DNA from: an uncultured Clostridia bacterium
Lineage (GTDB): Bacteria > Bacillota > Clostridia > Christensenellales > Aristaeellaceae
Assembly: GCA_946411525.1 (NCBI GenBank)
Contig: CAMKEI010000005.1
Coordinates: 1 to 64,000, forward strand
DNA length: 64,000 bases
Reading direction: 5' to 3'
Part shown: positions 7,513 to 41,567 of the stretch, piece by piece
How positions within the stretch are numbered: the first letter of the stretch is position 1
How the letters are laid out: each line of letters starts with the position of its first letter
The notes under the pieces: model-generated
What the model was told of the DNA's origin: nothing
What the model saw: the letters and a program-made list of their open reading frames with translations, nothing else
Database searches by the model: none
Program-made: the position numbers and the translations under genes

Positions 7513-9540
7513 TCAGTCTCCGATTCTTTCCAGCACCATGGCGGTGCGGCACGGACTGTATACGTCAAAGCCGAGTCCCCGGCCTTCAGCGTAAGCGGTA
7601 TGATATTCGTAACCGTGGTCGATCAGGCCCGGTCCGCCGAAACGTTCCTCGTCAGTACTCAGGATGACCCTGTATGTGCCTTCTCCGGTGGTGTGCGCGT
7701 GGAGGAAAAAGCGCTGTTCCGAATAACTGTTGTGGAAGTTGAACAGGAACAGCAGGCCGCCCCGGCTGAAGGTGATGATCTTCCGTTCTGGATCGATCCA
7801 CAGGCTGACAGCGTAGGGATCGTTCAGCAGCTTCCGGTCTTTGGCCAGATTAATCATAGCCTTGTCAAAGTCGTTCAGCCATTCGTATTTCAGGCGTTTG
7901 TCGTCCACGAGGGACCATTGCCTCCGGCAGTACTTATAGCTCCAGCCGTTGCCTTCCCGCGGAAAATCAATCCATTCCGGATGGCCGAATTCATTGCCCA
8001 TGAAATTCAGATAGCCGTTTCCGCCGAGGCTCATCGTGTAAAGCCGGATGATCTTGTGCAGCTCGATGGCCCGGTCCATGGTGATGGAATGATACTCCTT
8101 CATCATGCCGGTATACATTTCGGCGTCTGCCATACGGAAAATGATGGTCTTGTCGCCCACCAGCGCCTGGTCATGGCTCTCGCAGTAACCGATGACCTTC
8201 TCCTGCGGGCGGCGTGTGGTCATTTCATGCCAGAGGGCATTCATGTTCCAGTCCTCGTCACGCGTATCCTTCAGGAGCTTGATCCAGTAATCCGGCTCAC
8301 CCATAGCCAGGCGGTAATCAAAGCCGATGCCGCCCTGCTCGACCGGCAGGCACATGCCCGGCATGCCGCTCATGTCCTCGGATACGGTGGTGGCGTACGG
8401 GTTCACCTCATGGATCAGTTCGTTCGCCAGCTGGAGGTAGTTCAGGGCTTCCAGATCCGTATTCATGTTGAAATACATGTCATAGTTGGTGAACGCGCTT
8501 CCCAGGCCGTGATCGTGATAGATCATACTGGTGACGCCGTCGAAACGGAAACCGTCAAAATGGTATTCCGTCTGCCAGAATTTGAGGTTGCTCAGAAGGA
8601 AATGCAGCACTTCCACCCGGCCGTAATTGAACAGTTTCGTACCCCAGGCCGGATGCCATCCCTGGCCGCCTTCGAGGAAATACTGGTTCTCGGTGCCATC
8701 CTGCAGCTGCAGGCCTTCCCCGACGTTTGGGCATGCGTGGCTGTGCACTACGTCCAGCAGGACCCGGATTTCCATGCTGTGCGCCTTGTTTACCAGGTAT
8801 TTCAGATCGTCCGGTTCGCCGTACCAATGAGCTGCGGCGAAGAAATTCGTTACCTGATAGCCGAAGGAGCCGTAATAGGGGTGCTCCTGGATGGCCATCA
8901 GCTGAACTGTGTTATAGCCGAGATCACGGACCCGCGGCAGTACGTTGTCCGCGAACTCCCGGTAGGTGCCGATCCCTTCCTTGTCCTGGCTCATGCCGAC
9001 GTGCGCCTCATAAATCAGCGGGGCGTCCGGCTTCCGCGCGGTGAATTCCGCGTCTGTCCACGGATAGGGTTCCTCCGGATCCCACACCTGGCTGCACAGG
9101 GTCTTTGTCTCATCGTCCATCGCAACCCGGGTGCTGTAAGCCGGCAGCCGGGCAAACCATTCGTCCCCGTGGCGGACCCAGAGCTTGACGTTCTGGCCGT
9201 TTTTCAGGCTGTCCTTCCCTTCCAGGGCTATTTCCCAGACGCCGTTGTCGACCCGGTCGAGCGGATGGCTGTCCCTGTTCCATCCATTGAACTCGCCGAA
9301 AAGATGAACCTCGTCAGCGCCGGGCATCCATTCCCGGAAAACCCAGCCCTTCTTCGTCCGGTGAAAGCCGAAGAACAGATGACCGTTTGCGAAGCTCTCC
9401 AGCGTAGGCGCGTCAGCCACCAGCTGCCAGCGTTTCTCCTTGAAACGATCCATACGCAGCTCAATATCTCCGGCATGGGGAGCGAGCCAGGGATCGATCT
9501 CCGTGATCTGGTAGGGTGCGTACAGTTTTCCGATATCCAT
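7513..9540 (-). CDS. glgB: 1,4-alpha-glucan branching enzyme (CBM48 + GH13), similar to the eukaryote-type form
   Basis: 675 aa; N-terminal CBM48 (WVFREWMPGADEVHLFGEFNGWNRDSHPL), VLLDVVHSHACPN, DGFRFDGVTSMIYHDHG, SEDMSGMPG, ESHDQALVGDKT. Confidence 0.93.
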   Translation of the reverse strand: MDIGKLYAPYQITEIDPWLAPHAGDIELRMDRFKEKRWQLVADAPTLESFANGHLFFGFHRTKKGWVFREWMPGADEVHLFGEFNGWNRDSHPLDRVDNGVWEIALEGKDSLKNGQNVKLWVRHGDEWFARLPAYSTRVAMDDETKTLCSQVWDPEEPYPWTDAEFTARKPDAPLIYEAHVGMSQDKEGIGTYREFADNVLPRVRDLGYNTVQLMAIQEHPYYGSFGYQVTNFFAAAHWYGEPDDLKYLVNKAHSMEIRVLLDVVHSHACPNVGEGLQLQDGTENQYFLEGGQGWHPAWGTKLFNYGRVEVLHFLLSNLKFWQTEYHFDGFRFDGVTSMIYHDHGLGSAFTNYDMYFNMNTDLEALNYLQLANELIHEVNPYATTVSEDMSGMPGMCLPVEQGGIGFDYRLAMGEPDYWIKLLKDTRDEDWNMNALWHEMTTRRPQEKVIGYCESHDQALVGDKTIIFRMADAEMYTGMMKEYHSITMDRAIELHKIIRLYTMSLGGNGYLNFMGNEFGHPEWIDFPREGNGWSYKYCRRQWSLVDDKRLKYEWLNDFDKAMINLAKDRKLLNDPYAVSLWIDPERKIITFSRGGLLFLFNFHNSYSEQRFFLHAHTTGEGTYRVILSTDEERFGGPGLIDHGYEYHTAYAEGRGLGFDVYSPCRTAMVLERIGD

Positions 9541-9558
9541 TCTTTTCCCCTCCGCGTT

Positions 9559-10773
9559 TTATTCAGACCGGACCTGTTTTCCGTTCAGATCATAGTACTG
9601 CGTTGACGTCAGCGTTTTTGTGCTGTCGTAGCTGTACCTGATTTCACTGTATCCGCCGGGAATCTCGACCGGCATTCCGTCCGTACCGAGATAAGTGCGG
9701 GCTACGGTCGCGCCGTCATCGTCTTTCGTATCCCGGTATCCGGCGTATCCGGACAGGCAACGGACGGCATTTCCCTCCGTATCCTGATAAGTTACCGTTT
9801 CCAGGCTTCCCTGGAGATCATAGCCGTACAGTACCGCCCCGACCCCCGCGCTGTTGAGCGTCCGGTTTCCGTCCCCGTCCAGGAAGCTTTCCTTTACGAT
9901 CAGGTCGTCCTTCATCTCACGGACCGTCGTCACGACGCCCGAATCGTCGGCAATCGGTTTCCCGTCCAGGCTGAAACGGGTGACCTTTACGACGCTGTCC
10001 CCTTCCCAGGCATACTCCTCCCAGGCGTATCCGGCGCCGCGGTCAGTCAGCTGAGTGTTCACGTCATAGTATTTTATACAGGTAATCCTGCCTTTTCCGT
10101 CTCGGTCCTTGGTGCAGCGGAACCACCCGTCGGGACCTGTGGCCGGCGAACCGTCCGCGTGATCGTACCGGATGGAAATCACCCTGTAAAGCTTGTCTGT
10201 TTTCTGCCTGAGAATCGCATAGCCGTCCGCACTGTCAACCGGATTCTTTTTTTCATCCCGGAACGTCCGGGCGGTCAGGGTTTTGGCGCTGTATTCATAC
10301 AGAACGGACGCGTAGCCGAGTGAGGGAACGATGACCGGTTTCCTTTTGTCCAGTCCGTAGTAGGTCACCAGCTGAAGGTCGCCGAACCGGTAATAGGTCA
10401 TGGTGACCAGTCCGTATCCCTGACGGTTCAGGACGCGGCTTCCGTTCCGGTCCAGATACTCGATCTCCGTAATGTTGCCGCTTCCGTCCTTCATGACCCT
10501 GCGTCCGTAGTATCCGCCGTTTGACCTGCAGGGCTGCCCGTCTGCGTCGTAATATGTTTCATAGGTGTTTTCCTTTTTGTAGGTATAATGAACGGAACAG
10601 TAGCCTTCTGGTCCTTCGGCCGGCCTGCCGTTGTCGTCCTCCCAGACCGTTTCCGTGATCTTTCCGTTCTCTTCAATGTTCCGGGACTGCAGTTCTCCGA
10701 TGGCCGTAAAAGGAATCAGCAGGCACAGTACAAGCGCTGCGATCCCGGCCGGAAATCTCTTCTTCATCAACAT
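9559..10773 (-). CDS. Secreted repeat protein of unknown function with ~45-aa YD/WG-like repeats
   Basis: 404 aa; signal peptide MLMKKRFPAGIAALVLCLLIPFTAIGE; recurrent YYDxxGxxVxxxxGYAxxxYxY units. Confidence 0.8.
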   Translation of the reverse strand: MLMKKRFPAGIAALVLCLLIPFTAIGELQSRNIEENGKITETVWEDDNGRPAEGPEGYCSVHYTYKKENTYETYYDADGQPCRSNGGYYGRRVMKDGSGNITEIEYLDRNGSRVLNRQGYGLVTMTYYRFGDLQLVTYYGLDKRKPVIVPSLGYASVLYEYSAKTLTARTFRDEKKNPVDSADGYAILRQKTDKLYRVISIRYDHADGSPATGPDGWFRCTKDRDGKGRITCIKYYDVNTQLTDRGAGYAWEEYAWEGDSVVKVTRFSLDGKPIADDSGVVTTVREMKDDLIVKESFLDGDGNRTLNSAGVGAVLYGYDLQGSLETVTYQDTEGNAVRCLSGYAGYRDTKDDDGATVARTYLGTDGMPVEIPGGYSEIRYSYDSTKTLTSTQYYDLNGKQVRSE

Positions 10774-10880
10774 TGTTCACCTGTCTCATCTGCCGGACCG
10801 CAAAACGGTAAACCGGACGTTTTTCCTTCAGATAATTATATCAAAAAACGCTGTATAACACAAGACAAGACCCGGAACAA

Positions 10881-10911
10881 AAAAATACAGAACCCCGGCG
10901 TAAAGCCGGGG
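10881..10911 (-). terminator. Rho-independent terminator of the AGCS symporter gene
   Basis: Minus strand CCCCGGC-TTTAC-GCCGGGG followed by TTCTGTATTTTTTTG. Confidence 0.88.
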
Positions 10912-10934
10912 ATCTGCTGATCTGAACGGAGCAA

Positions 10935-12542
10935 TCAGTCGTCCTCGTCGGTGGGAGGAGCGACCTCTTCTTCATGCTGTACATCGGGGAAGGCGGAGTA
11001 CATCGGCTCCACCTGCAGGCCGCGCAGATGGCGGTCCACATAGTTCTTCGTGATTTTCGCCACGGTTCCGGACAGAACGATCACGCCGATCAGGTTCGGA
11101 ATCATCATCAGTCCGTTGAAGGTGTCCGCCAGGTCCCAGGCCAGGTTGTCGCCCATCGTCGCGCCGCCGAAAACCAGCAGCACAAACAGCACGCGGTAGA
11201 TGATGGTCCATTTCTCACCGAGCAGGTACTCGCATGCTTTGGTGCCGTAATGGCTCCAGCCAAGCACCGTGGAGAAAGCAAACAGCATGATCGAAACCGC
11301 GATGAACGCGGAACCGATGAAACCGAACTGCTGGTTGAATACGGCGGATACCAGATTCGCCTTGCTCAGCGTTATTTCTGCACCGGCCTGCGTCATAAAG
11401 GTGGCGCTGACCAGTTCGCCGGTTTCCAGGTTGATCAGCCCGGAGGACAGCACCGCGAAGGCGGTCAGGGTACAGACCACAATCGTGTCGGCAAACACCT
11501 CAAAGATGCCCCACATGCCCTGCTTGACGGGCTCCTTGACGTTGGAGTTGGAGTGAACCATGACCGAGGAGCCGAGGCCGGCTTCGTTGGAGAACACACC
11601 GCGCTTCATGCCCCATTCGATGGCGAGCTTGATGCCGTAACCGACCACGCCGCCCGCTGCGGCCTGCATGCCGAAGGCGCCTTTGAAGATGGATGTAAAT
11701 ACCGAGCCGACATGAGAGATATTGATAAAGAAGATCGCGATCGTTCCGACCATATACAGGATCACCATGAAGGGAACGATTTTCTCGGTCACCGCGGCAA
11801 TCCGCTTCAGTCCTCCGACAACCACGAGGCCGACCAGGATCATGATCACCAGACCGGTCACCCAGGACGGCACGCCGAAGACGGCGTCCATGTTCCCTGA
11901 AATGGAATTGACCTGCGTCATGTTTCCGATGCCGAAGGAAGCAACCAGGCAGAAGAAGGCAAACAGCCCGGCCAGCACGAGACCGATCCATTTGCAGCCT
12001 TTCTTTGCGCCGAGTCCGTCGCGCAGGTAGTACATCGCGCCGCCTGACCACTCACCCTTTGAGTTCTTGCGGCGGTAGAAAATACCCAGTACGTTCTCCG
12101 AATAGTTGGTCATCATGCCCAGGAAAGCCATGACCCACATCCAGAACACAGCGCCCGGTCCGCCCATCAGGATGGCGCCGGATACGCCGACAATGTTACC
12201 GGTGCCGACGGTCGCGGCCAGCGCCGTGCATAGGCTCTGGAACTGGGAAATGCTTCTGTCCTTCGTATGGGACGTGACCTGTTTGTCACGGAAAACCGCG
12301 CCGATGGTCTTCTTCATCCAGTGGCCGAAATGAGACACCTGGAAAACCTTGGTGAGCACGGTCATCAGGATGCCGACAAAAGCCAGCAGCGCAAGGGCGG
12401 GAACTCCCCAGACAACGCCGTTCACCGCATTATTCACGTTTTCGACGCCCTTCAGGAAACCGCCGGTTTCCTCAGCGGCAGCCGTCACCGTCCATGCAAG
12501 GCTTCCCAGCAGAACGCCGGCCATTCCGGTGCTTTTCTTCAT
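10935..12542 (-). CDS. Sodium:alanine/glycine symporter, AGCS family
   Basis: 535 aa; SLCTALAATVGTGNIVGVSGAILMGGPGAVFWMWVMAFLGMMTNYSE and NEAGLGSS motifs are typical of AGCS. Confidence 0.96.
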   Translation of the reverse strand: MKKSTGMAGVLLGSLAWTVTAAAEETGGFLKGVENVNNAVNGVVWGVPALALLAFVGILMTVLTKVFQVSHFGHWMKKTIGAVFRDKQVTSHTKDRSISQFQSLCTALAATVGTGNIVGVSGAILMGGPGAVFWMWVMAFLGMMTNYSENVLGIFYRRKNSKGEWSGGAMYYLRDGLGAKKGCKWIGLVLAGLFAFFCLVASFGIGNMTQVNSISGNMDAVFGVPSWVTGLVIMILVGLVVVGGLKRIAAVTEKIVPFMVILYMVGTIAIFFINISHVGSVFTSIFKGAFGMQAAAGGVVGYGIKLAIEWGMKRGVFSNEAGLGSSVMVHSNSNVKEPVKQGMWGIFEVFADTIVVCTLTAFAVLSSGLINLETGELVSATFMTQAGAEITLSKANLVSAVFNQQFGFIGSAFIAVSIMLFAFSTVLGWSHYGTKACEYLLGEKWTIIYRVLFVLLVFGGATMGDNLAWDLADTFNGLMMIPNLIGVIVLSGTVAKITKNYVDRHLRGLQVEPMYSAFPDVQHEEEVAPPTDEDD

Positions 12543-12577
12543 ATACTTTTCCGCCTTTCTTCCGGTTGAACTGAAAA

Positions 12578-12606
12578 GCGTCTCCGAGCAGAATGCCCGA
12601 AGACGC
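12578..12606 (-). promoter_or_regulatory. Leader hairpin followed by U4 between promoter and start codon of the AGCS gene (possible attenuator)
   Basis: Minus strand GCGTCTTCGGGCATTCTGCTCGGAGACGC then TTTTC; about 12 nt after the expected transcription start. Confidence 0.45.
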
Positions 12607-12624
12607 CCTTGTCTCTTGCGGAAA

Positions 12625-12654
12625 AGTATACAACCTTGTTTTTTGGCATGTCAA
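12625..12654 (-). promoter_or_regulatory. Sigma-A type promoter for the AGCS symporter
   Basis: Minus strand TTGACA-18 bp-TATACT. Confidence 0.8.
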
Positions 12655-12936
12655 TTCTTCCGGAAAACCCGAACAACGAAAAAACACAAACAGTGTCGTA
12701 TCGCGGGACTGTTCTGTCCTGATTCGGTGTCCCGGTCAGCTGTTCCCTTTATGAACGCTGAAAAAGCTGTTCAAACAGCATGTTTGGTAGTATAATAAAT
12801 TGATTATAAATGATGAAGGCATCCATCTGCGACATGGTTTCGGGATCAATGAAAGATCGCCGGAATCGCGTTTCCCGTTCGGCCTGAGGCCCGGTTGACG
12901 CGGATGCTGTATATGTTTATCTGAAAGGAGTTCTCC

Positions 12937-14757
12937 ATGAACCTCTGGCTGAACCGTCTGGTCCCGTCCGTTCCCGCGGATCTGACCGGCCCCGCTGACC
13001 TCGCCCGTTACGAACTGAACAATGCCGGAATTCGCGCCGAATTTAACGAGAATTCAGCCATGGGAGACGCCTGGCGCGTCGAGCCGCGCTTGGACGGTTC
13101 TTTTCTCCTTACCGGCGGACAAACCGGCCTGCTCTATGCCTCCTACCGGCTGATTACCGGGCTCGTTTGCGGAGAAGAGTTCCTCGGCTCCCTGTCGTCC
13201 GCGCCGAAATACGCGCTTCGGATGATCAACTGCTGGGACAATATGGACGGAAGCATTGAGCGGGGCTATGCCGGCCGGAGCCTGTTTTTCCGGGACGGCC
13301 GGATCTCCTATGATCCGGACAGGATGCGGACGCTGGGCCGGGCTATGGCTTCCGCCGGCCTCAACGTCCTGTGCGTCAACAACGTCAACGTGCATGATCC
13401 CGCCCAGCGTCTCCTCGAAGACTTTTTGCCCGGCCTCGCGGCCCTGGCGGATCTGTTCCGCCCTTTCGGTGTCCGCCTGATGCTCAGTATAGACTTCTCG
13501 CAGCCCATGCGCCATGGCGTCTCTTCCGCCGATCCGCTGGATCCTGCCGTCCGCGCCTGGTGGAAGGAAACAGCTGCACGCGTATACGCAGCGATCCCGG
13601 ATCTTGCCGGTTTTCTTGTCAAGGCGGACAGTGAGGGACGTCCCGGGCCATTCTCCTACGGCCGGAACCATGCGGACGGCGCGAACATGCTTGCTGAAGC
13701 CCTGAAGCCTTTCGGCGGATATGTCGTCTGGCGCTGCTTCGTGTACAACTGCCGCCAGGATTGGCGCGACACGAGAACAGACCGTCCGAAGGCCGCCTGG
13801 GATCACTACGCGTGCCTGGACGGAACTTTTGCCGGGAACGTGATCCTCCAGGTCAAGCACGGCCCCTTCGATTTCCAGGTAAGGGAACCGCTGAGTCCCT
13901 TGCTGCTCGGAATGAAACATACAAACCTTGCTATGGAAATACAGCTTGCGCAGGAATATACCGGCCACCAGATCGATCTGTACACGATGATCCCGATGTG
14001 GAAGGAACTGTTTGACGAACTGCCTGCGGACAGCATCATGTCCATCGCGGCGGTTTCCAATCTCGGAGATGACGAAAACTATACCGGTCATCCGCTGGCT
14101 GCGGTCAATCTGTACACCTACGGCCTGATGGCCTGGGATCCGGAAACGGACGCGAAAGAAGCCGTCACCAGATGGATCCGGCTGACCTACCGATTCGCTC
14201 CGGAGCAGGAGCAGACGCTGGCCGGCCTGTTGCTCTCTTCCCGGAGGATCTATGAAAAATACACCGCGCCGCTGGGTATTGGCTGGATGGTCACGCCGCA
14301 CAGCCACTACGGTCCGAACCCTTCCGGCTATGAATACGATCTGTGGGGCACTTATCATAAAGCGGACAGAAACGCCGTCGGCATCGACAGGACCCACGCC
14401 GGCACCGGCTACCTGGATCAGTATCCGGAGTCGTTCCGGACAAAATACGGGGATCCCGCCGTCTGTCCGGATCTGTTCCTGCTGTTCTTCCACCGCCTGC
14501 CCTATTCCTTCCGGATGAAGGACGGCCGGACGCTCATTCAGCGCATCTACGACGATCATTTTGAGGGGCTGGAGGAAACCCGGGACCTTGCCCGGGAACT
14601 GGCGGCCATCCCCTTCCCCGAACCGGACGCAACCGTGATCCGCGCCAGGATGAAGCTGCAGCTATACAATGCCGGCGAATGGTGCGATGTGATCAACACT
14701 TTCTTCCATCGCCTCAGCGGCGTTCCGGATGACAGAGGCCGTATCATATACGACTGA
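12937..14757 (+). CDS. aguA: Alpha-glucuronidase, GH67 type
   Basis: 606 aa, no signal peptide; YALRMINCWDNMDGSIERGYAGRSLFF, GLNVLCVNNVNVHDPAQRL, GFLVKADSEGRPGPFSYGRNHADGANMLAEAL, VWRCFVYNCRQDWRDTRTDRPKAAWDHYACLDGTFAGNVILQVKHGPFDFQVREP. Confidence 0.93.
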   Translation: MNLWLNRLVPSVPADLTGPADLARYELNNAGIRAEFNENSAMGDAWRVEPRLDGSFLLTGGQTGLLYASYRLITGLVCGEEFLGSLSSAPKYALRMINCWDNMDGSIERGYAGRSLFFRDGRISYDPDRMRTLGRAMASAGLNVLCVNNVNVHDPAQRLLEDFLPGLAALADLFRPFGVRLMLSIDFSQPMRHGVSSADPLDPAVRAWWKETAARVYAAIPDLAGFLVKADSEGRPGPFSYGRNHADGANMLAEALKPFGGYVVWRCFVYNCRQDWRDTRTDRPKAAWDHYACLDGTFAGNVILQVKHGPFDFQVREPLSPLLLGMKHTNLAMEIQLAQEYTGHQIDLYTMIPMWKELFDELPADSIMSIAAVSNLGDDENYTGHPLAAVNLYTYGLMAWDPETDAKEAVTRWIRLTYRFAPEQEQTLAGLLLSSRRIYEKYTAPLGIGWMVTPHSHYGPNPSGYEYDLWGTYHKADRNAVGIDRTHAGTGYLDQYPESFRTKYGDPAVCPDLFLLFFHRLPYSFRMKDGRTLIQRIYDDHFEGLEETRDLARELAAIPFPEPDATVIRARMKLQLYNAGEWCDVINTFFHRLSGVPDDRGRIIYD

Positions 14758-22772: not shown

Positions 22773-25652
22773 TTACAGATCCCTGACCGTCAGCCCTTCG
22801 CAGTCCTTCAGCGCGTCATGATGCGCCACCACGCATACGGCGCCTTCCCGGCTGAAGACTTCCAGCCAGCCTGCGCATCGCTCCAGGTCCTCCGGCGCCG
22901 CATACAGGATCTGTCTGCGGATCCGTTCCGCCTCAGCGCGGGTATAGCCGTTCATGTGCCGCCTGTCCGCCAGGGCTCCTTTATCCCGCGGGCTCAGCAG
23001 CGGATTGAGCGAGTTCAGCGCTGAGATGATATACTGATCCAGCGCTTCTCCCTGTTCCGCGAACCTCCTCAGATAATCCGCTGCGCCAGTGTCTGCATCG
23101 AGGGTCTTTGCGGGTGTCGGATCACGGAAGGAATAGGAAAAGAGATTGCCGCTCCGGTCGACCTGTATCCCGGCGCCGTACGCGCCTCCCTGTACGCGGA
23201 CGCGGTTCCAGAGATATTCCAGGGTCAGGATGGACATCGCCAGCCACATGCTTCCTTCAAACTCCGTTCCGAGCCTGCTCAGGCGGAATCCGCGCGCAGC
23301 GAATCCGATCTGGGCCGGAATCCGGAATCCGGCAGCAGTCGGCGTGTCGACCCAGTACGCCCGGTTCTCCGGAACCGGCGTTCCATCCGGAAAAGCCTCC
23401 GCCAGCCGCTCCGGCAGCGGCCCGCCGGCGGATGTAATGCTCAGAGTCAGCCTGCTGCGGCAGAAAGTTCCGTGCATCAGGCGTTCCGACAGGCGGTGAA
23501 GTTCCGGCATCTCCTTCTTCGGCTCCCGCGCCAGCTGATGGACGTACGCCACGGCTGCGTCGCCGTCCAGGGCATTCTTCACCGCGTTCTCCGCGCAGAA
23601 ATGGCTCAGCACGTTTTTGACGCCGATCATATGGCCGGCGCCGAGAATCCGCTGACGGGCGTCCATCTCGTTCTGGCGGAACATCTCCGTCATCCTCTCC
23701 TCATCCTCAAAGCGCGTGGATGTCAGGATTTCCGCCAGCAGCGCCCAGGCTTTTTCCGCATTCTCCTCCAGCGCGCTGACAAACGCGGTCAGATAGGGCG
23801 TACAGGTCTCGTCCTGTCCCTGTTCCGCCCGCGTGATAATTGTAAATCCGACGGATCCGGTCCAGCGCTTGATCTCCTGCTGCAGCGTCAGGGCGTCATG
23901 TTCCGCGGTGGGCAGGTGACCCAGCAGGCCAACCAGCTGCGACAGCCTTGTCAGTTCCTCCAGGTTGTAATCCGTCAGCGAGAAATAGGCGCGCAGATAA
24001 ACTACGCCGTTGCAGTTCAGCCGGTGCGTCATCAGCGGAACGCCTCCGCAGTCCTGCATGTCCGTATCTACCCACTCCGATTCCACATCCGCATCTTCCC
24101 GGGTCAGCTTCGGCAGGGTCTTCAGGCTTTCCGGACTGTCCGGTTTGTTCTGCCATGCCCAGATCTCTTCGATCAGCCGGTCATTCTCTTCCTTTTCCAC
24201 GTCCGTCCATGTGCCGGTGATCTTCCGAAGACGTTCCGCTTCCCGACGGCGCTTTTCTTCGCCGACCGTTCTGGAAGGCAGCGTATGCAGGATCACCAGA
24301 CCCTCGCGATTCAGGAGCATGTCCGCAGCCAGTTCGTCGAACCGTCCGTTTTCCAGGTACTCCTTCAGCTCACGCACGATGCCGGCAGTTTCCAGAGAAT
24401 CGGTGGGATCGGCGCCGTAAATCCAGTTTCCGACGCAGCGGATGCACCGCTCTATACCCTGGGGCTCGTCCTCTTCGCGAAGCATATAGATCGCCCGGTT
24501 CAGGGAGGCTTCCACCATGTGTCGGTCCAGGCCTTCCCGCCGGATCGTTTCTCCGGTTTCCCGCAGCAGGTCCGCCAGTTCAGCCTCCCTGCCGTCCGTT
24601 ACGTTGTCCGCGTGAAAGGTGACCCAGCTCTGAAGGGTCGTATCGTCCACGGAGGCGGAGAAATCCTCTGCCAGTCCGCGTTCCAGTGCGGCTCGCTTCA
24701 GAATCGCTTCGTTGCCCCCCGTAAGCACATCGCAGATGATCCCGCGGGCCATGTTGTCCGTCCGGTCCTTCCAGGTTCCCGTAATCCGGGCAAGGGTCAG
24801 ATGTCCCCGGTTTTCGTCCGGTTCCTCCTGTCCGAGCTCATATCGGATGGTATCCTCGGAAGCGACAGGCTTCTGATATTCATATTCCGGCAGGTCTGTC
24901 CGCCGCTCATAACGGTCCAGGTAGGACGCGATCAGGGGCAGCATCTCCTCCATCGGTACAGCTCCGTCCAGATAAATCAGCGCGTTGCTCGGATGGTAGC
25001 ACCGCCGGTACTGTTCGCAGAAACGTTCATAGGTCAGTTCCGGTATTTCCTCTGGATCGCCGCCGCTGTTGAAACCGTAGCAGGTGTCCGGAAACATTTG
25101 CTGCATGATACGACGGTCGATCAGCGTGTCTGTATCGCTCATGGCGCCTTTCATTTCATTGAAAACCACGCCTTTGTAGACCGGTTCCCCGCTTCCGTCC
25201 CGGTTGATATGCCATCCTTCCTGGCAGAAGATCCGGCGGTCCGTAAGCACTTTCGGTGCAAACACGGCGTCAAGATAGACGCCTGTCAGGTTCAGCAGGT
25301 CCCGTGGATTCCGGCTGGCGACCGGATACATGGTCATATCCTGAAAAGTAAGCGCGTTCAGAAAGGTGTTCATGCTGCTTTTGAGCAGTTCAACAAAGGG
25401 TTCCTTCACCGGATACTTTTCGCTGCCGCACAGCACGCTGTGCTCCAGAATGTGGAACACGCCGGTACTGTCTTCCGGCAGCGTCCGGAAAGTCACAGAA
25501 AAGACCATGTTTTCCGCGTCGTTATCCACCCAGAAGACGCATGCGCCGGTCCGGTCGTGCTCCAGCAGCACCGTCTTTCCGTGCAGTTCTTCGCTTTCCC
25601 GGACTGTTTTTACAGTATAACCGTACAGCTTCTGATTCGCTTCAATCATCAT
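22773..25652 (-). CDS. Peptidase M16C family, presequence protease/HypA-like
   Basis: 959 aa; inverted zinc motif HILEH in STGVFHILEHSVLCGSEKYPVKEPFVELLKSSMNTFLNALTFQDMTMYPVASRN. Confidence 0.95.
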   Translation of the reverse strand: MMIEANQKLYGYTVKTVRESEELHGKTVLLEHDRTGACVFWVDNDAENMVFSVTFRTLPEDSTGVFHILEHSVLCGSEKYPVKEPFVELLKSSMNTFLNALTFQDMTMYPVASRNPRDLLNLTGVYLDAVFAPKVLTDRRIFCQEGWHINRDGSGEPVYKGVVFNEMKGAMSDTDTLIDRRIMQQMFPDTCYGFNSGGDPEEIPELTYERFCEQYRRCYHPSNALIYLDGAVPMEEMLPLIASYLDRYERRTDLPEYEYQKPVASEDTIRYELGQEEPDENRGHLTLARITGTWKDRTDNMARGIICDVLTGGNEAILKRAALERGLAEDFSASVDDTTLQSWVTFHADNVTDGREAELADLLRETGETIRREGLDRHMVEASLNRAIYMLREEDEPQGIERCIRCVGNWIYGADPTDSLETAGIVRELKEYLENGRFDELAADMLLNREGLVILHTLPSRTVGEEKRRREAERLRKITGTWTDVEKEENDRLIEEIWAWQNKPDSPESLKTLPKLTREDADVESEWVDTDMQDCGGVPLMTHRLNCNGVVYLRAYFSLTDYNLEELTRLSQLVGLLGHLPTAEHDALTLQQEIKRWTGSVGFTIITRAEQGQDETCTPYLTAFVSALEENAEKAWALLAEILTSTRFEDEERMTEMFRQNEMDARQRILGAGHMIGVKNVLSHFCAENAVKNALDGDAAVAYVHQLAREPKKEMPELHRLSERLMHGTFCRSRLTLSITSAGGPLPERLAEAFPDGTPVPENRAYWVDTPTAAGFRIPAQIGFAARGFRLSRLGTEFEGSMWLAMSILTLEYLWNRVRVQGGAYGAGIQVDRSGNLFSYSFRDPTPAKTLDADTGAADYLRRFAEQGEALDQYIISALNSLNPLLSPRDKGALADRRHMNGYTRAEAERIRRQILYAAPEDLERCAGWLEVFSREGAVCVVAHHDALKDCEGLTVRDL

Positions 25653-37200: not shown

Positions 37201-37521
37201 GTGCTGGAAACTGCGGAATCTGTTTTTGATCTTGTGATTCATTACAGCATCCTGATTATGGAAATCATCGGCGCCGCACTGATTCTTTACCGCTGCGTCT
37301 TTGCCGTAATCCGCCTGATCCGGGGAAACTCAAAGCTCTGCCGGGCGTCCATCACGGACGGAATCACCACCGGACTTAGCTTCCTGCTGGTCAGCGAGGT
37401 GCTGAAGACTATCAGCGACCGGGACTGGACCTCGATCGGCATGACCTGTGCCATTCTCCTCATGCGCGCCGCGATTTCCTTTCTTGTTCACTGGGAAAGC
37501 AAAGCAGAGCATCATGACTGA
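37201..37521 (+). CDS. DUF1622-like small membrane protein
   Basis: VLETAESVFDLVIHYSILIMEIIGAALILYRCVFAVIRLI...ITDGITTGLSFLLVSEVLKTI; probable GTG start at 37201 after CGGAGGTGATTGCC. Confidence 0.75.
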   Translation: MLETAESVFDLVIHYSILIMEIIGAALILYRCVFAVIRLIRGNSKLCRASITDGITTGLSFLLVSEVLKTISDRDWTSIGMTCAILLMRAAISFLVHWESKAEHHD

Positions 37522-37532
37522 CACCGTCTTTC

Positions 37533-37566
37533 ACCGTCCCTGCCAGCAGGCAGGGATGGTTTTTTG
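37533..37566 (+). terminator. Rho-independent terminator
   Basis: ACCGTCCCTGCC-AGCA-GGCAGGGATGGT followed by TTTTTT. Confidence 0.9.
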
Positions 37567-37577
37567 TGCGTATAGCC

Positions 37578-37606
37578 TTGAATATTTATGCTCTACGTAT
37601 TAAAAT
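37578..37606 (+). promoter_or_regulatory. Sigma-A type promoter of the 1307-aa peptidase gene
   Basis: TTGAAT-17 bp-TAAAAT in an AT-rich intergenic stretch. Confidence 0.65.
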
Positions 37607-37643
37607 ATAAAAAATTACAACATCAGATCCGGAGGGGACAAAA

Positions 37644-40600
37644 ATGAAGAAAAACGTTGCGCTACCCATTATTGCCATTCTTGCGGTGGCAGCTGTTGTG
37701 CTGGGCGTCCTGTTCGTGACAAACAATGCGGACAAGACCGCTCAGATCACCTCGCTGAACGCCGACGTGGCTGACAAAGCCGGTCAGATCGAGACGCTCA
37801 ACGCCGACGTGGCCGACAAGGCCGGCCAGATCGAGACGCTCAACGCCGACGTGGCCGACAAGGCCGGTCAGATCGAAACACTCAGCACCGACGTGGCCGA
37901 CAAATCCGGCCAGATCGAAACGCTCAGCGCTGACGTGGCCGACAAGGCCGGTCAGATCGAAATGCTCAGCGCTGACGTGGCCGATAAGGCCGATCAGATT
38001 GAGACACTGAACGCCGACGTGGCCGACAAAGCCGGTCAGATCGAAACGCTGAACGCTGATATTGCAGATAAGGCAGGACAGATCGAAGCGCTTTCCGCGG
38101 ATCAGAAAAGCAAGGAAGAACAGATCGCCGGGCTGACCGAAACCGTTGAACAGCAGAAAAAGCTGCTTGCCTACGATCATATGACTGAGGCAGAACTGCA
38201 GGATCTGGTTGAGCAGATCGCTCCGCCGTTGGAATCCTATGATTATGACATCAACCTGAAAAAGCTCTGGCCGGTTGAAGTCGGAGACGTTGTCAGGGGC
38301 TTTGAAGTAAAAGAAATCCGGGCCTTCGACATGATCGGTGCCCAGCTTGTGCTCTTTGAGCATCAGAAAACCGGCGCGAAACTCCTCTACATTGCCAACG
38401 AGGATACCAACCGCGCCTTCCAGCTGACCTTTCCGACCCGTCCGGTTGACAATACCGGCCTACCGCACGTATTCGAGCACGCGACGCTTTCAGGCTCGGA
38501 AAAGTATCCCAGCACAGGTCTGTGGTTTAATCTGAACTATCAGACCTACAACACCTACATGAACGCCTATACCACCGACGCCATGACCAGCTATCCGATC
38601 GCTTCCCTGTCCGAGAAGCAGCTGCTCCGTCTGGCGGATTTCTACACCGATTGCTGTCTGCATCCGATCATCATGGAACGCGAGGATATCTACCGGACCG
38701 AAGCCTGGCGTTATGAAATGACGGACGCGGACAGCCCTCTGACGCTCAACGGGACCGTCTACAGCGAAATGACCGGCGCCATGGATCTGCAGCGCGCCGC
38801 ACTGAGTAACGCCAACGGGATCACCTTCCCCGGCGCTGCGCTGACCTTCGATTACGGCGGCAATCCGGAGTTTATTCCGGACATGACCTGGGAAGCGCTG
38901 AAAGACTACCACAATAAATACTATCATCCGTCCAACTGCATCGCCTTCCTGTACGGTTCCTTCGATAACTACACCGCTTTCCTGAAGCTGCTGGATGAGG
39001 CGTTCAGCAATTATGAAAAGCAGGAATTTTCCTTCACTGACAGCGGCTATACCCGCATCACGGAACCTGTTACTGTCAGCGTTCCCTACGGCGTGGCCGA
39101 AGGAACCGATACGGCGAACCAGTCTTCCGTCTATTACTATGTTCTCTGTCCCGGGCTCAGGGAGAACAAGGCGATGCAGCGCGCTGTCGATCATGCCTGC
39201 ACACTGCTGAACTCTGACAGTTCCCTGCTGATGCAGAACCTGAAAAAAGCCTTCCCCGCCGGAAGCTTCTCCTGCGGCCGGGAAGTCGCCGCTCCTGACG
39301 ATGCGATCGTCTTTTCTGCGGACAACGTGAACGATTCGGACGCCGAGACATTCCGCACCGTTGTGAACGACTCCCTGAAGCAGGTTGTACAGGACGGCTT
39401 CGATCCCGTTCAGCTGGATTCCATCCTTGCCTCCCAGCAGCTGACCAACAAGCTGGCAATGGAGAACGGAGATCCCGTAGAAAGCGTTCTGTATTCCACC
39501 GCCTACTACTATGCGGTTACCGGAAATCCCTTTGACTACGCCGAGCAGATGGCTGATATCGCCGGAATCAAGGATGAAAACGAAAAAGGCAAGCTGACCG
39601 GTGCGATCAGCGCCTGGCTGACCGATCCGGCCCTCTATACGCTGACGACCACCTATCCCGTCCCCGGTGGGAAGGAAAAGCAGGACGCCGCGCTGGCGGA
39701 AAAGCTGGCAGCCGTCAAAGCCGGCATGATCGACGAGGAAAAGCAGGCGGTCATTGACGCCACCAACGCCGAATCGGCTGAAGAAGACAATACTGAGATG
39801 ATCGCTTCCCTGACAGCCGTGTCCGTGGCGGATCTTCCCGAAGAAATCCGCGAATACCAGGTGACGGACGAGACCGGCGAGGACGGAGTGCGCCGTATGA
39901 ACGCCGTCGCTGGCGTGGACGGCGTCGGAAAAGTCAGCCTGTATCTGGACGCCCGCGCCCTGCCGCAGGAAGACATCCATTATCTGCGTCTCTTTACCCG
40001 CCTGATGGGTCAGCTGGACACAGACGCCCATACCAGCGAGGAACTGGCTGTTCTCACGGAACGGTATCTGATGGGCCGGACCATCGGCGTGGACACTTTC
40101 GATTCGCCTGAGAGGGATGACGTCCGCGTCATGCTGGTAGCGGAATGGATTGCGCTGGATGAGGACCTGTCTGCCGGCTATGATCTGATCAGCGAAATCC
40201 TCTTCCGGACTCAGTTCACCGATATCCAGAAGCTTTCCGACAAGATCGCCGCCCAGAAATCCTATGTACGCAATCAGATCAACGCCGATCCGTATACAGC
40301 GCTCTGGGCCCGGATGGAAGGCATTACGGATCCCCGGTTCAGGTATTATGATTATCTGAACTACACCGCCTATTACTCCTTCCTGGATAAACTGGAACAG
40401 CAGATCGCGGCCGATCCGCAGGCTGTCGTGGCGCGCCTGCAGGGCGTTCAGTCCTTCCTGGCCAACCGGACCGGCGCAGTCATGACTTTCGCCGGAAACG
40501 AAGCTTCCATCGCGCTGAACACCCCTCTGGCGGATGCTTTCTTTGCGAACCTGCCTGCCGAAGCGCGCGAATACCCGGTTTACAATCTGCCGGAACCTCG

Positions 40601-41567
40601 GATGAGGGAAGCTGTTGCTGTTGACGGAAACATCCAGTTCAATCTGAACGTTGCCACCTTTAAGCAGATGGGCACCGATCCGGACTATTCCCTGAACGTC
40701 ATCGGAACGCTGATCCAGGATCAGCTGCTGATTCCTGTTCTGCGGGATCAGCTGGGCGCCTACGGCGCGTGGTGCGGAATGGATGACGATATCGGCATGT
40801 ATCTGATCTCCTACAGAGACCCGAATGTCCAGGCGACCTTCGATGTATATGACTCCATTTCCCAGAAGCTCGCCGAATTTGATTCCTCTCAGGAAACGCT
40901 GGACGGCTATATCCTCCAGGCATATTCCGGCCTGGCCAAGCCGGCCGGTGAACTGTCCGGCGCCGTCGATAAACTGGTAAATATTCTCCACGGCATCCCT
41001 GCGGATGAAACGCTGCGGAAAATGCGCGCCTACAAGAGTGTGACGCCTGAATCCGTCAGAGCTTCTTCCTCCGTCTTCGCGCTCCTGGCTGAAAAGGGCG
41101 CCCGCGGCACGGTCGGCGGCATCGGTACCCTGCAGGAAAACGCTGCTCTGTACGACGTGATCATGAACCCCTTCAACACCGAAATCCAGGCCCCTGCCGA
41201 AATGACCGACGTGGCCGAAGACCATGAACACTATACCGCCATCCGCTTTGTCCTGGACAACGGATATATGTCCCTGAAAGGCGAAGGCCTTTTCGCACCG
41301 GACGATCCCGCCACCCTGGGAGACTTCCTTGGCTCAATGAATGTACTGTTCGGTCTGGGAAGCAGCGATCCCGAGGCCGCCAGAGACATGTTTGCCCAGT
41401 ACGGCCTGGTCAGCAGCAGCGAGGATCTCACTGCTGAACTGCATGAGGATTATATGTGCAGATTCCTGAAAAACGCCACCGGCCAGGATGTCCTGACGAC
41501 TGATACCCCGGACGCGGCTGTTCCGCGCGGCGATCTGGCCGACCTGCTCTGGCGGTTCAATCAGTAA
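37644..41567 (+). CDS. Surface-anchored M16C-type metallopeptidase with N-terminal TM, tandem coiled coil and C-terminal SLH-like domain
   Basis: 1307 aa; TM segment VALPIIAILAVAAVVLGVLFV; 8 x 14-aa repeats; HVFEH zinc motif in NTGLPHVFEHATLSGSEKYPSTGLWFNLNYQTYNTYMNAYTTDAMTSYPIAS; C-terminal TDVAEDHEHYTAIRFVLDNGYMSLKGEGLFAPDDPATLGDFLGSMNVLFG resembles an SLH domain. Confidence 0.88.
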   Translation: MKKNVALPIIAILAVAAVVLGVLFVTNNADKTAQITSLNADVADKAGQIETLNADVADKAGQIETLNADVADKAGQIETLSTDVADKSGQIETLSADVADKAGQIEMLSADVADKADQIETLNADVADKAGQIETLNADIADKAGQIEALSADQKSKEEQIAGLTETVEQQKKLLAYDHMTEAELQDLVEQIAPPLESYDYDINLKKLWPVEVGDVVRGFEVKEIRAFDMIGAQLVLFEHQKTGAKLLYIANEDTNRAFQLTFPTRPVDNTGLPHVFEHATLSGSEKYPSTGLWFNLNYQTYNTYMNAYTTDAMTSYPIASLSEKQLLRLADFYTDCCLHPIIMEREDIYRTEAWRYEMTDADSPLTLNGTVYSEMTGAMDLQRAALSNANGITFPGAALTFDYGGNPEFIPDMTWEALKDYHNKYYHPSNCIAFLYGSFDNYTAFLKLLDEAFSNYEKQEFSFTDSGYTRITEPVTVSVPYGVAEGTDTANQSSVYYYVLCPGLRENKAMQRAVDHACTLLNSDSSLLMQNLKKAFPAGSFSCGREVAAPDDAIVFSADNVNDSDAETFRTVVNDSLKQVVQDGFDPVQLDSILASQQLTNKLAMENGDPVESVLYSTAYYYAVTGNPFDYAEQMADIAGIKDENEKGKLTGAISAWLTDPALYTLTTTYPVPGGKEKQDAALAEKLAAVKAGMIDEEKQAVIDATNAESAEEDNTEMIASLTAVSVADLPEEIREYQVTDETGEDGVRRMNAVAGVDGVGKVSLYLDARALPQEDIHYLRLFTRLMGQLDTDAHTSEELAVLTERYLMGRTIGVDTFDSPERDDVRVMLVAEWIALDEDLSAGYDLISEILFRTQFTDIQKLSDKIAAQKSYVRNQINADPYTALWARMEGITDPRFRYYDYLNYTAYYSFLDKLEQQIAADPQAVVARLQGVQSFLANRTGAVMTFAGNEASIALNTPLADAFFANLPAEAREYPVYNLPEPRMREAVAVDGNIQFNLNVATFKQMGTDPDYSLNVIGTLIQDQLLIPVLRDQLGAYGAWCGMDDDIGMYLISYRDPNVQATFDVYDSISQKLAEFDSSQETLDGYILQAYSGLAKPAGELSGAVDKLVNILHGIPADETLRKMRAYKSVTPESVRASSSVFALLAEKGARGTVGGIGTLQENAALYDVIMNPFNTEIQAPAEMTDVAEDHEHYTAIRFVLDNGYMSLKGEGLFAPDDPATLGDFLGSMNVLFGLGSSDPEAARDMFAQYGLVSSSEDLTAELHEDYMCRFLKNATGQDVLTTDTPDAAVPRGDLADLLWRFNQ
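37758..38093 (+). repeat. Eight tandem 42-bp units encoding (N/S)ADVADKAGQIETL
   Basis: In-frame reading of consecutive 42-bp units 37758-37799 through 38052-38093; first three units are identical at protein level. Confidence 0.96.

Follow-up and report, generated by a model that had tools for sequence, protein, structure and literature searches.

How an M16C peptidase may be held at the bacterial cell surface is the question raised by one gene in the window, the whole stretch of 64,000 nucleotides analyzed here, which comes from a gut Clostridia bacterium. A preliminary description had read its product as a peptidase anchored by a transmembrane helix, displayed on an extensible repetitive stalk and docked to the wall by a C-terminal S-layer homology (SLH) domain. 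We confirmed the open reading frame of 1307 aa at 37644-41567 on the plus strand and found the order N-terminal anchor, coiled-coil repeats, M16C/PreP body, and SLH-type tail. The features of the locus are as follows:

37533..37560, plus strand: terminator-like hairpin separating the stalked M16C gene from the upstream DUF1622 gene
37578..37606, plus strand: promoter-like TTGAAT-17-TAAAAT (consensus match), 38-66 bases upstream of the gene
37631-37637, plus strand: ribosome-binding site GGAGGGG, just before the ATG at 37644
37644..41567, plus strand: stalked M16C metallopeptidase gene, 1307 aa (ORF, Pfam, 2fge match)
37656..37721, plus strand: predicted hydrophobic anchor, residues 5-26, without a usable cleavage site after it (simple -3/-1 rule)
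37728..38171, plus strand: predicted coiled-coil stalk, residues 29-176, 14-aa/42-bp repeats with heptad position a = I/V and d = L/K (TRF, heptad analysis)
38445..38741, plus strand: match to the Peptidase_M16 catalytic domain at residues 268-366, with HVFEH at 275-279 (Pfam)
38766..38768, plus strand: E375, third zinc ligand by sequence position, 96 residues past H279
38883..39425, plus strand: Peptidase_M16_C, residues 414-594 (Pfam)
39657..40394, plus strand: M16C_assoc, residues 672-917 (Pfam)
40608..41057, plus strand: PreP_C, residues 989-1138, including R1034 and Y1040, the distal catalytic pair (Pfam, 2fge match)
41202..41327, plus strand: SLH unit 1, residues 1187-1228, TRAE arginine replaced (TLGD) (Pfam SLH)
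41361..41483, plus strand: SLH unit 2, degenerate, at about residues 1240-1280, with HED in place of TRE (tail alignment)
41496..41564, plus strand: SLH unit 3, truncated and without its first helix, at about residues 1285-1307, with the arginine retained in PRGD (tail alignment)

The source genome is a draft, 85% complete and in 113 contigs. Promoter-like matches around the gene were no more frequent than expected from shuffled sequence. The gene directly upstream, at 37201-37521 on the plus strand, encodes a DUF1622 small membrane protein and has its own terminator-like hairpin.

All four Pfam domains of the M16C body scored over their cut-offs (E-values of 4.9e-29 for M16C_assoc, 6.7e-16 for PreP_C, 1.7e-14 for Peptidase_M16_C, and 5.3e-6 for Peptidase_M16), and their order is complete; 22 of 22 relatives match the four domains as well. 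Among solved structures, the best relative was Arabidopsis PreP (2fge), collinear over residues 219-1152 with E=1e-73, followed by human PreP and falcilysin. The catalytic set is complete and consists of the inverted zinc motif HxxEH (H275, E278, H279), E375, R1034, and Y1040; E375 lies 96 residues past H279, the spacing of PreP, and is by this position the third zinc ligand. Domains, intact catalytic residues, and the collinear PreP match thus bear out the M16C identity proposed earlier. Nothing in the sequence points to an inactive enzyme, and the protein is presumably an active peptidase. The substrates of the M16C class are short unstructured peptides (PreP: PMC8983764).

At the N terminus, an uncharged stretch of 22 residues ends at VTNNADK, and the simple -3/-1 rule finds no small-x-small site beyond it. 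The sole such motif is AVA at residues 14-16, where cleavage would be possible in principle; because this motif sits in the middle of the stretch, an uncleaved anchor is by this rule of thumb more likely than a signal peptide, in agreement with the transmembrane helix of the preliminary description. The anchor is followed by nine to ten repeats of 14 residues (42 bp) with the consensus ADKAGQIETLNADV. At the DNA level, TRF detected 8.6 copies of the 42-bp unit at 37731-38092 (84% matches, score 444), and the core units 2-8 showed 74-93% identity. Codon differences across units 1-9 were more often synonymous (163) than non-synonymous (102), and the protein repeat therefore looks constrained. 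Heptad position a is I or V throughout, and position d alternates between L and K, with a and d together 71% hydrophobic; given this pattern, a coiled coil is the expected form of the stalk, and its 148 residues would, at 0.15 nm per residue, span about 22 nm. Both the TRF repeats and the heptad pattern agree with the repetitive coiled-coil stalk first described, while its supposed extensibility found no support, a coiled coil being what the repeat predicts. NCBIfam matches to SMC and similar families were ignored as coiled-coil cross-matches.

The C-terminal tail scored 19.8 bits against the Pfam SLH model (cut-off 20.8 bits) in the full protein, 24.1 bits when searched alone, and 25.6 bits in a search of the genome. 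When 29 tails were combined into a profile, it matched the SLH regions of SbsB (4.6e-10) and of Sap (4e-6), the latter along most of the profile, and 23 of the 29 tails matched Pfam SLH at E<=0.01; at E<=1, the match was seen in 15 of 22 relatives. Because of the profile matches and the 23 Pfam matches, we consider the homology of the tail to SLH trimers secure, and the SLH reading of the C terminus stands. The window tail is nevertheless short of a three-unit trimer and consists of one recognizable, one degenerate, and one truncated unit. The possible second degenerate unit noted previously is better described as two units, a degenerate unit 2 and a truncated unit 3. Tails in the family come in two lengths, about 170 residues with three SLH units (L070, L144, L162) and about 130-145 residues with a third unit lacking the first helix, and the window tail is one of the short ones. 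Structure prediction for the protein added little: the AlphaFold models, made with three to four alignment sequences, were poor (mean pLDDT 50 and 42), and a PDB fold search with a weak model gave SpaA-SLH (6cwl) as the likeliest structural match, with a program-assigned probability of 0.44 and a nonsignificant E=3.1, a match that is no more than suggestive.

Published structures show Arg43 (in the TRAE motif), Gly29, and Trp13 as the residues that bind the ligand in SLH domains (PMC6081394). These residues are mostly lost in the window tail, where one of three TRAE-type arginines is left, in unit 3, and unit 1 is also without the equivalents of SLH-Gly29 and SLH-Trp13. Of 109 tails, 105 retain the unit-3 arginine, which argues that the tail still has some role. 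The window tail seemed to have changed fast on the stalked branch, but we rejected this as evidence of relaxed constraint: the relative-rate count was 39:3 with L038 as the outgroup but a symmetric 14:16 with L008, the latter indicating tail sequence common to both groups of secreted paralogues, for which gene conversion may be the cause. An accelerated change of tails on stalked branches was similarly dropped as inconsistent across six stalked lineages, with no excess in L026 and L090. The L038 locus itself holds two secreted M16C-SLH paralogues in tandem on the minus strand (7553-11008 and 11261-14731), and their tails are closer to the second paralogue group than their bodies are (L010-L038 tail 75%, body 68%), which suggests gene conversion of the tail.

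Could such a tail dock the protein to the wall? Within the genus of the window, including genomes 95-99% complete, we found no SLH match outside the stalked M16C gene and its counterparts. In the whole set examined, no CsaB match exceeded the 213-bit cut-off, and the window genome and the near-complete genomes of the same genus agreed in this: CsaB-like scores were about 20-30 bits in the window's genome and in complete genomes of the genus, with 52 bits as the best of the genus. As proof against docking, the missing CsaB is weakened by the SLH-rich family genomes G408, G432, and G443, which are also without a CsaB match; as other SLH-bearing genera thus lack a recognizable CsaB, another wall ligand may serve the SLH tails. 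Still, with no other SLH protein in the genus, no CsaB, and most ligand residues gone, classical S-layer docking, as the preliminary description had proposed, is doubtful, which leaves the membrane anchor as the likely tether. Omp85 was not found in the genome of the window, which is consistent with a single-membrane envelope, and we therefore do not expect an OmpM-like tether to an outer membrane (PMC10628300).

The origin of the anchor and stalk was informed by two sets of proteins. The nearest M16C relatives, with bodies 73-76% identical, have classic signal peptides, e.g., MKKLLSLLLALALFVSVLPAIAEPAPA, and no stalk. The first 34 residues of the stalked M16C protein showed 50-62% identity to 7 of 10 differently headed stalk proteins of the genus; their alignments to the M16C relatives' signal peptides scored low, at 24-41% identity. 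The other heads carried on the MKK...TNN anchor and 14-aa repeats are SH3/SH3_3 (L047, L050, L051, L053), LRR_4 (L052), HAD hydrolase (L046), DUF6273 (L049), and unassigned domains. Across the genus, the set with this anchor and stalk comprises L045-L055 and L038:5356-6651, a possible surface-display cassette. The anchor-stalk looks like a swappable module for display, and the simplest account is that the M16C gene took it up in place of its signal peptide. A broader proposal is that the cassette is a genus-wide display platform with exchanged heads (M16C, HAD phosphatase-like, SH3b, LRR, DUF6273) and that it repeatedly captured the secreted M16C peptidases of the family, turning wall-associated (SLH) enzymes into membrane-stalked ones; this we offer tentatively, as somewhat less probable than its negation.

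A close M16C protein was present in 138 of 300 family genomes, spanning 24 of 50 genera, and the family comparison covered 127 proteins, about 120 of them relatives from the same bacterial family. Most family relatives have the ordinary secreted layout of signal peptide, M16C body, and SLH tail, while a TM-like anchor and stalk were found in 7 of the 127 proteins (the window protein, L026, L069, L082, L090, L098, and L144). Stalked display thus holds for the window protein and six others and fails as a rule of the family, in which secretion by way of a signal peptide prevails. On a FastTree of the M16C body, the seven stalked members, most of them placed among secreted proteins, need six changes; as the tree has many open forks, "several times" is the safer wording, with the count leaving gains and losses inseparable. 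The stalks of L026 and L069 are rich in alanine and glutamate, unlike that of the window protein, and this dissimilarity points to separate stalk events. The stalked L069 carries no SLH tail, and the stalked L144 keeps a full-length tail of three units. In some secreted relatives, the signal peptide or the SLH tail is followed by long E/A/P repeats of low complexity (L104 tail, L120, L138). In L031 (G017:C2), the M16C-SLH gene has two in-frame TGA stops, possibly a sign of decay or an assembly error.

Taken together, the protein is probably a PreP-like M16C zinc peptidase that its anchor-stalk holds at the outside of the cell membrane, with an SLH tail that is eroding and is not the main tether, and it probably descends from a secreted ancestor that swapped its signal peptide for the cassette of the genus. 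The domains, the intact active site, the stalk, the SLH homology, the cassette common to other proteins, and the contrast with secreted relatives are all present in the sequence; from there we infer the direction of the exchange, the topology, the surface location, the activity, the substrates, and the oligomeric state. With the transmembrane helix and the ~22-nm stalk as its support, the protease, a chamber of two halves, would stand within the wall zone or at its edge and degrade short unstructured peptides there, whether from food, from the debris of signal peptides, or from the antimicrobial defenses of the host. The products might feed peptide uptake, or the enzyme might remove antimicrobial peptides, with neither favored, and the best reading is that of a surface-tethered peptide scavenger or detoxifier. 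The tail, inherited from an ancestor with a signal peptide, M16C body, and SLH tail, would be an eroding wall-binding module that may still make weak contact with the wall.

The principal alternative is a protein fixed at both ends, with the N terminus anchored in the membrane, the SLH tail bound to wall polymer, and the protease strung between them. The true SLH homology of the tail, the near-universal TRAE-type arginine of unit 3, the three-unit tail retained by the stalked L144, and the family genera that have several SLH proteins without a recognizable CsaB all speak for it. We nevertheless judge it unlikely, as the genus shows no other SLH protein and no CsaB over the cut-off, the window tail has lost the arginines of units 1 and 2, Gly29 and Trp13 of unit 1, and the first helix of unit 3, and the stalked L069 manages without any SLH tail. 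Should the N terminus be processed instead, the peptidase would be secreted, with the repeat-rich region as a spacer, and kept solely by its affinity for the wall. That model draws on the secretion of the relatives through signal peptides and on the low-complexity spacers behind the signal peptides of L120, L130, and L138, but it is improbable given that the only candidate cleavage site lies mid-helix, with none past VTNNADK, and that a whole set of stalk proteins has the same N terminus. An assembly or gene-prediction artefact fusing a stalk gene to an M16C gene is conceivable in a draft genome with repeats prone to misassembly; a single open frame, a good ribosome-binding site before the anchor, and fusions of this kind in six further assemblies, each time with stalk sequences unlike that of the window, make it very improbable indeed. 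The membrane-stalked peptidase with an eroding tail is therefore the reading we retain.

If this reading is true, a chamber peptidase known mainly from organelles and the cytoplasm is displayed on the bacterial surface, first by wall-binding domains and then, several times, on membrane stalks. The family would provide a natural series, from secreted proteins with three SLH units through secreted ones with a reduced tail to stalked ones with and without a tail, in which the choice between wall and membrane tethering in Gram-positive gut bacteria could be studied, and the cassette could be followed genus-wide in search of further enzymes on display. Of greater interest than the SLH tail are the stalk cassette shared with other proteins and its repeated exchange. 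Among the papers searched, none joined M16C or insulinase with S-layer homology (domain), which is weak evidence of novelty.

Compared with PreP and falcilysin (PDB 2fge, 4l3t, 3s5h), the stalked protein agrees in the full order of its M16C domains, in the zinc ligands and the catalytic base, and in the distal Arg/Tyr pair; PreP is soluble and resides in organelles, whereas the stalked protein has a predicted membrane anchor, coiled-coil stalk, and SLH-type tail. A soluble M16C paralogue in the window (22773-25652, minus strand; 959 aa) has the identical set of four Pfam domains at 24% identity, but is without signal peptide, anchor, stalk, and tail and is likely cytoplasmic. The secreted M16C-SLH orthologues (e.g., L010, L011, L070) share the body, at 73-76% identity for the nearest, and the SLH-type tail, with three full SLH units in L070 and L162; they differ in having a cleavable signal peptide and no stalk. 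With the SLH trimers of SpaA, Sap, and SbsB, the likeness lies in the tail profile, which matches Sap and SbsB, and the difference in the window tail being shortened and deprived of most ligand residues. The anchor-stalk proteins of the genus (L045-L055) have a homologous MKK..TNN anchor and a 14-aa repeat stalk, often much longer than that of the M16C protein, and carry other C-terminal heads. Against these systems, the stalked M16C peptidase appears as a genuine variation on known parts, modest though recurring, in which the means of surface retention has changed.
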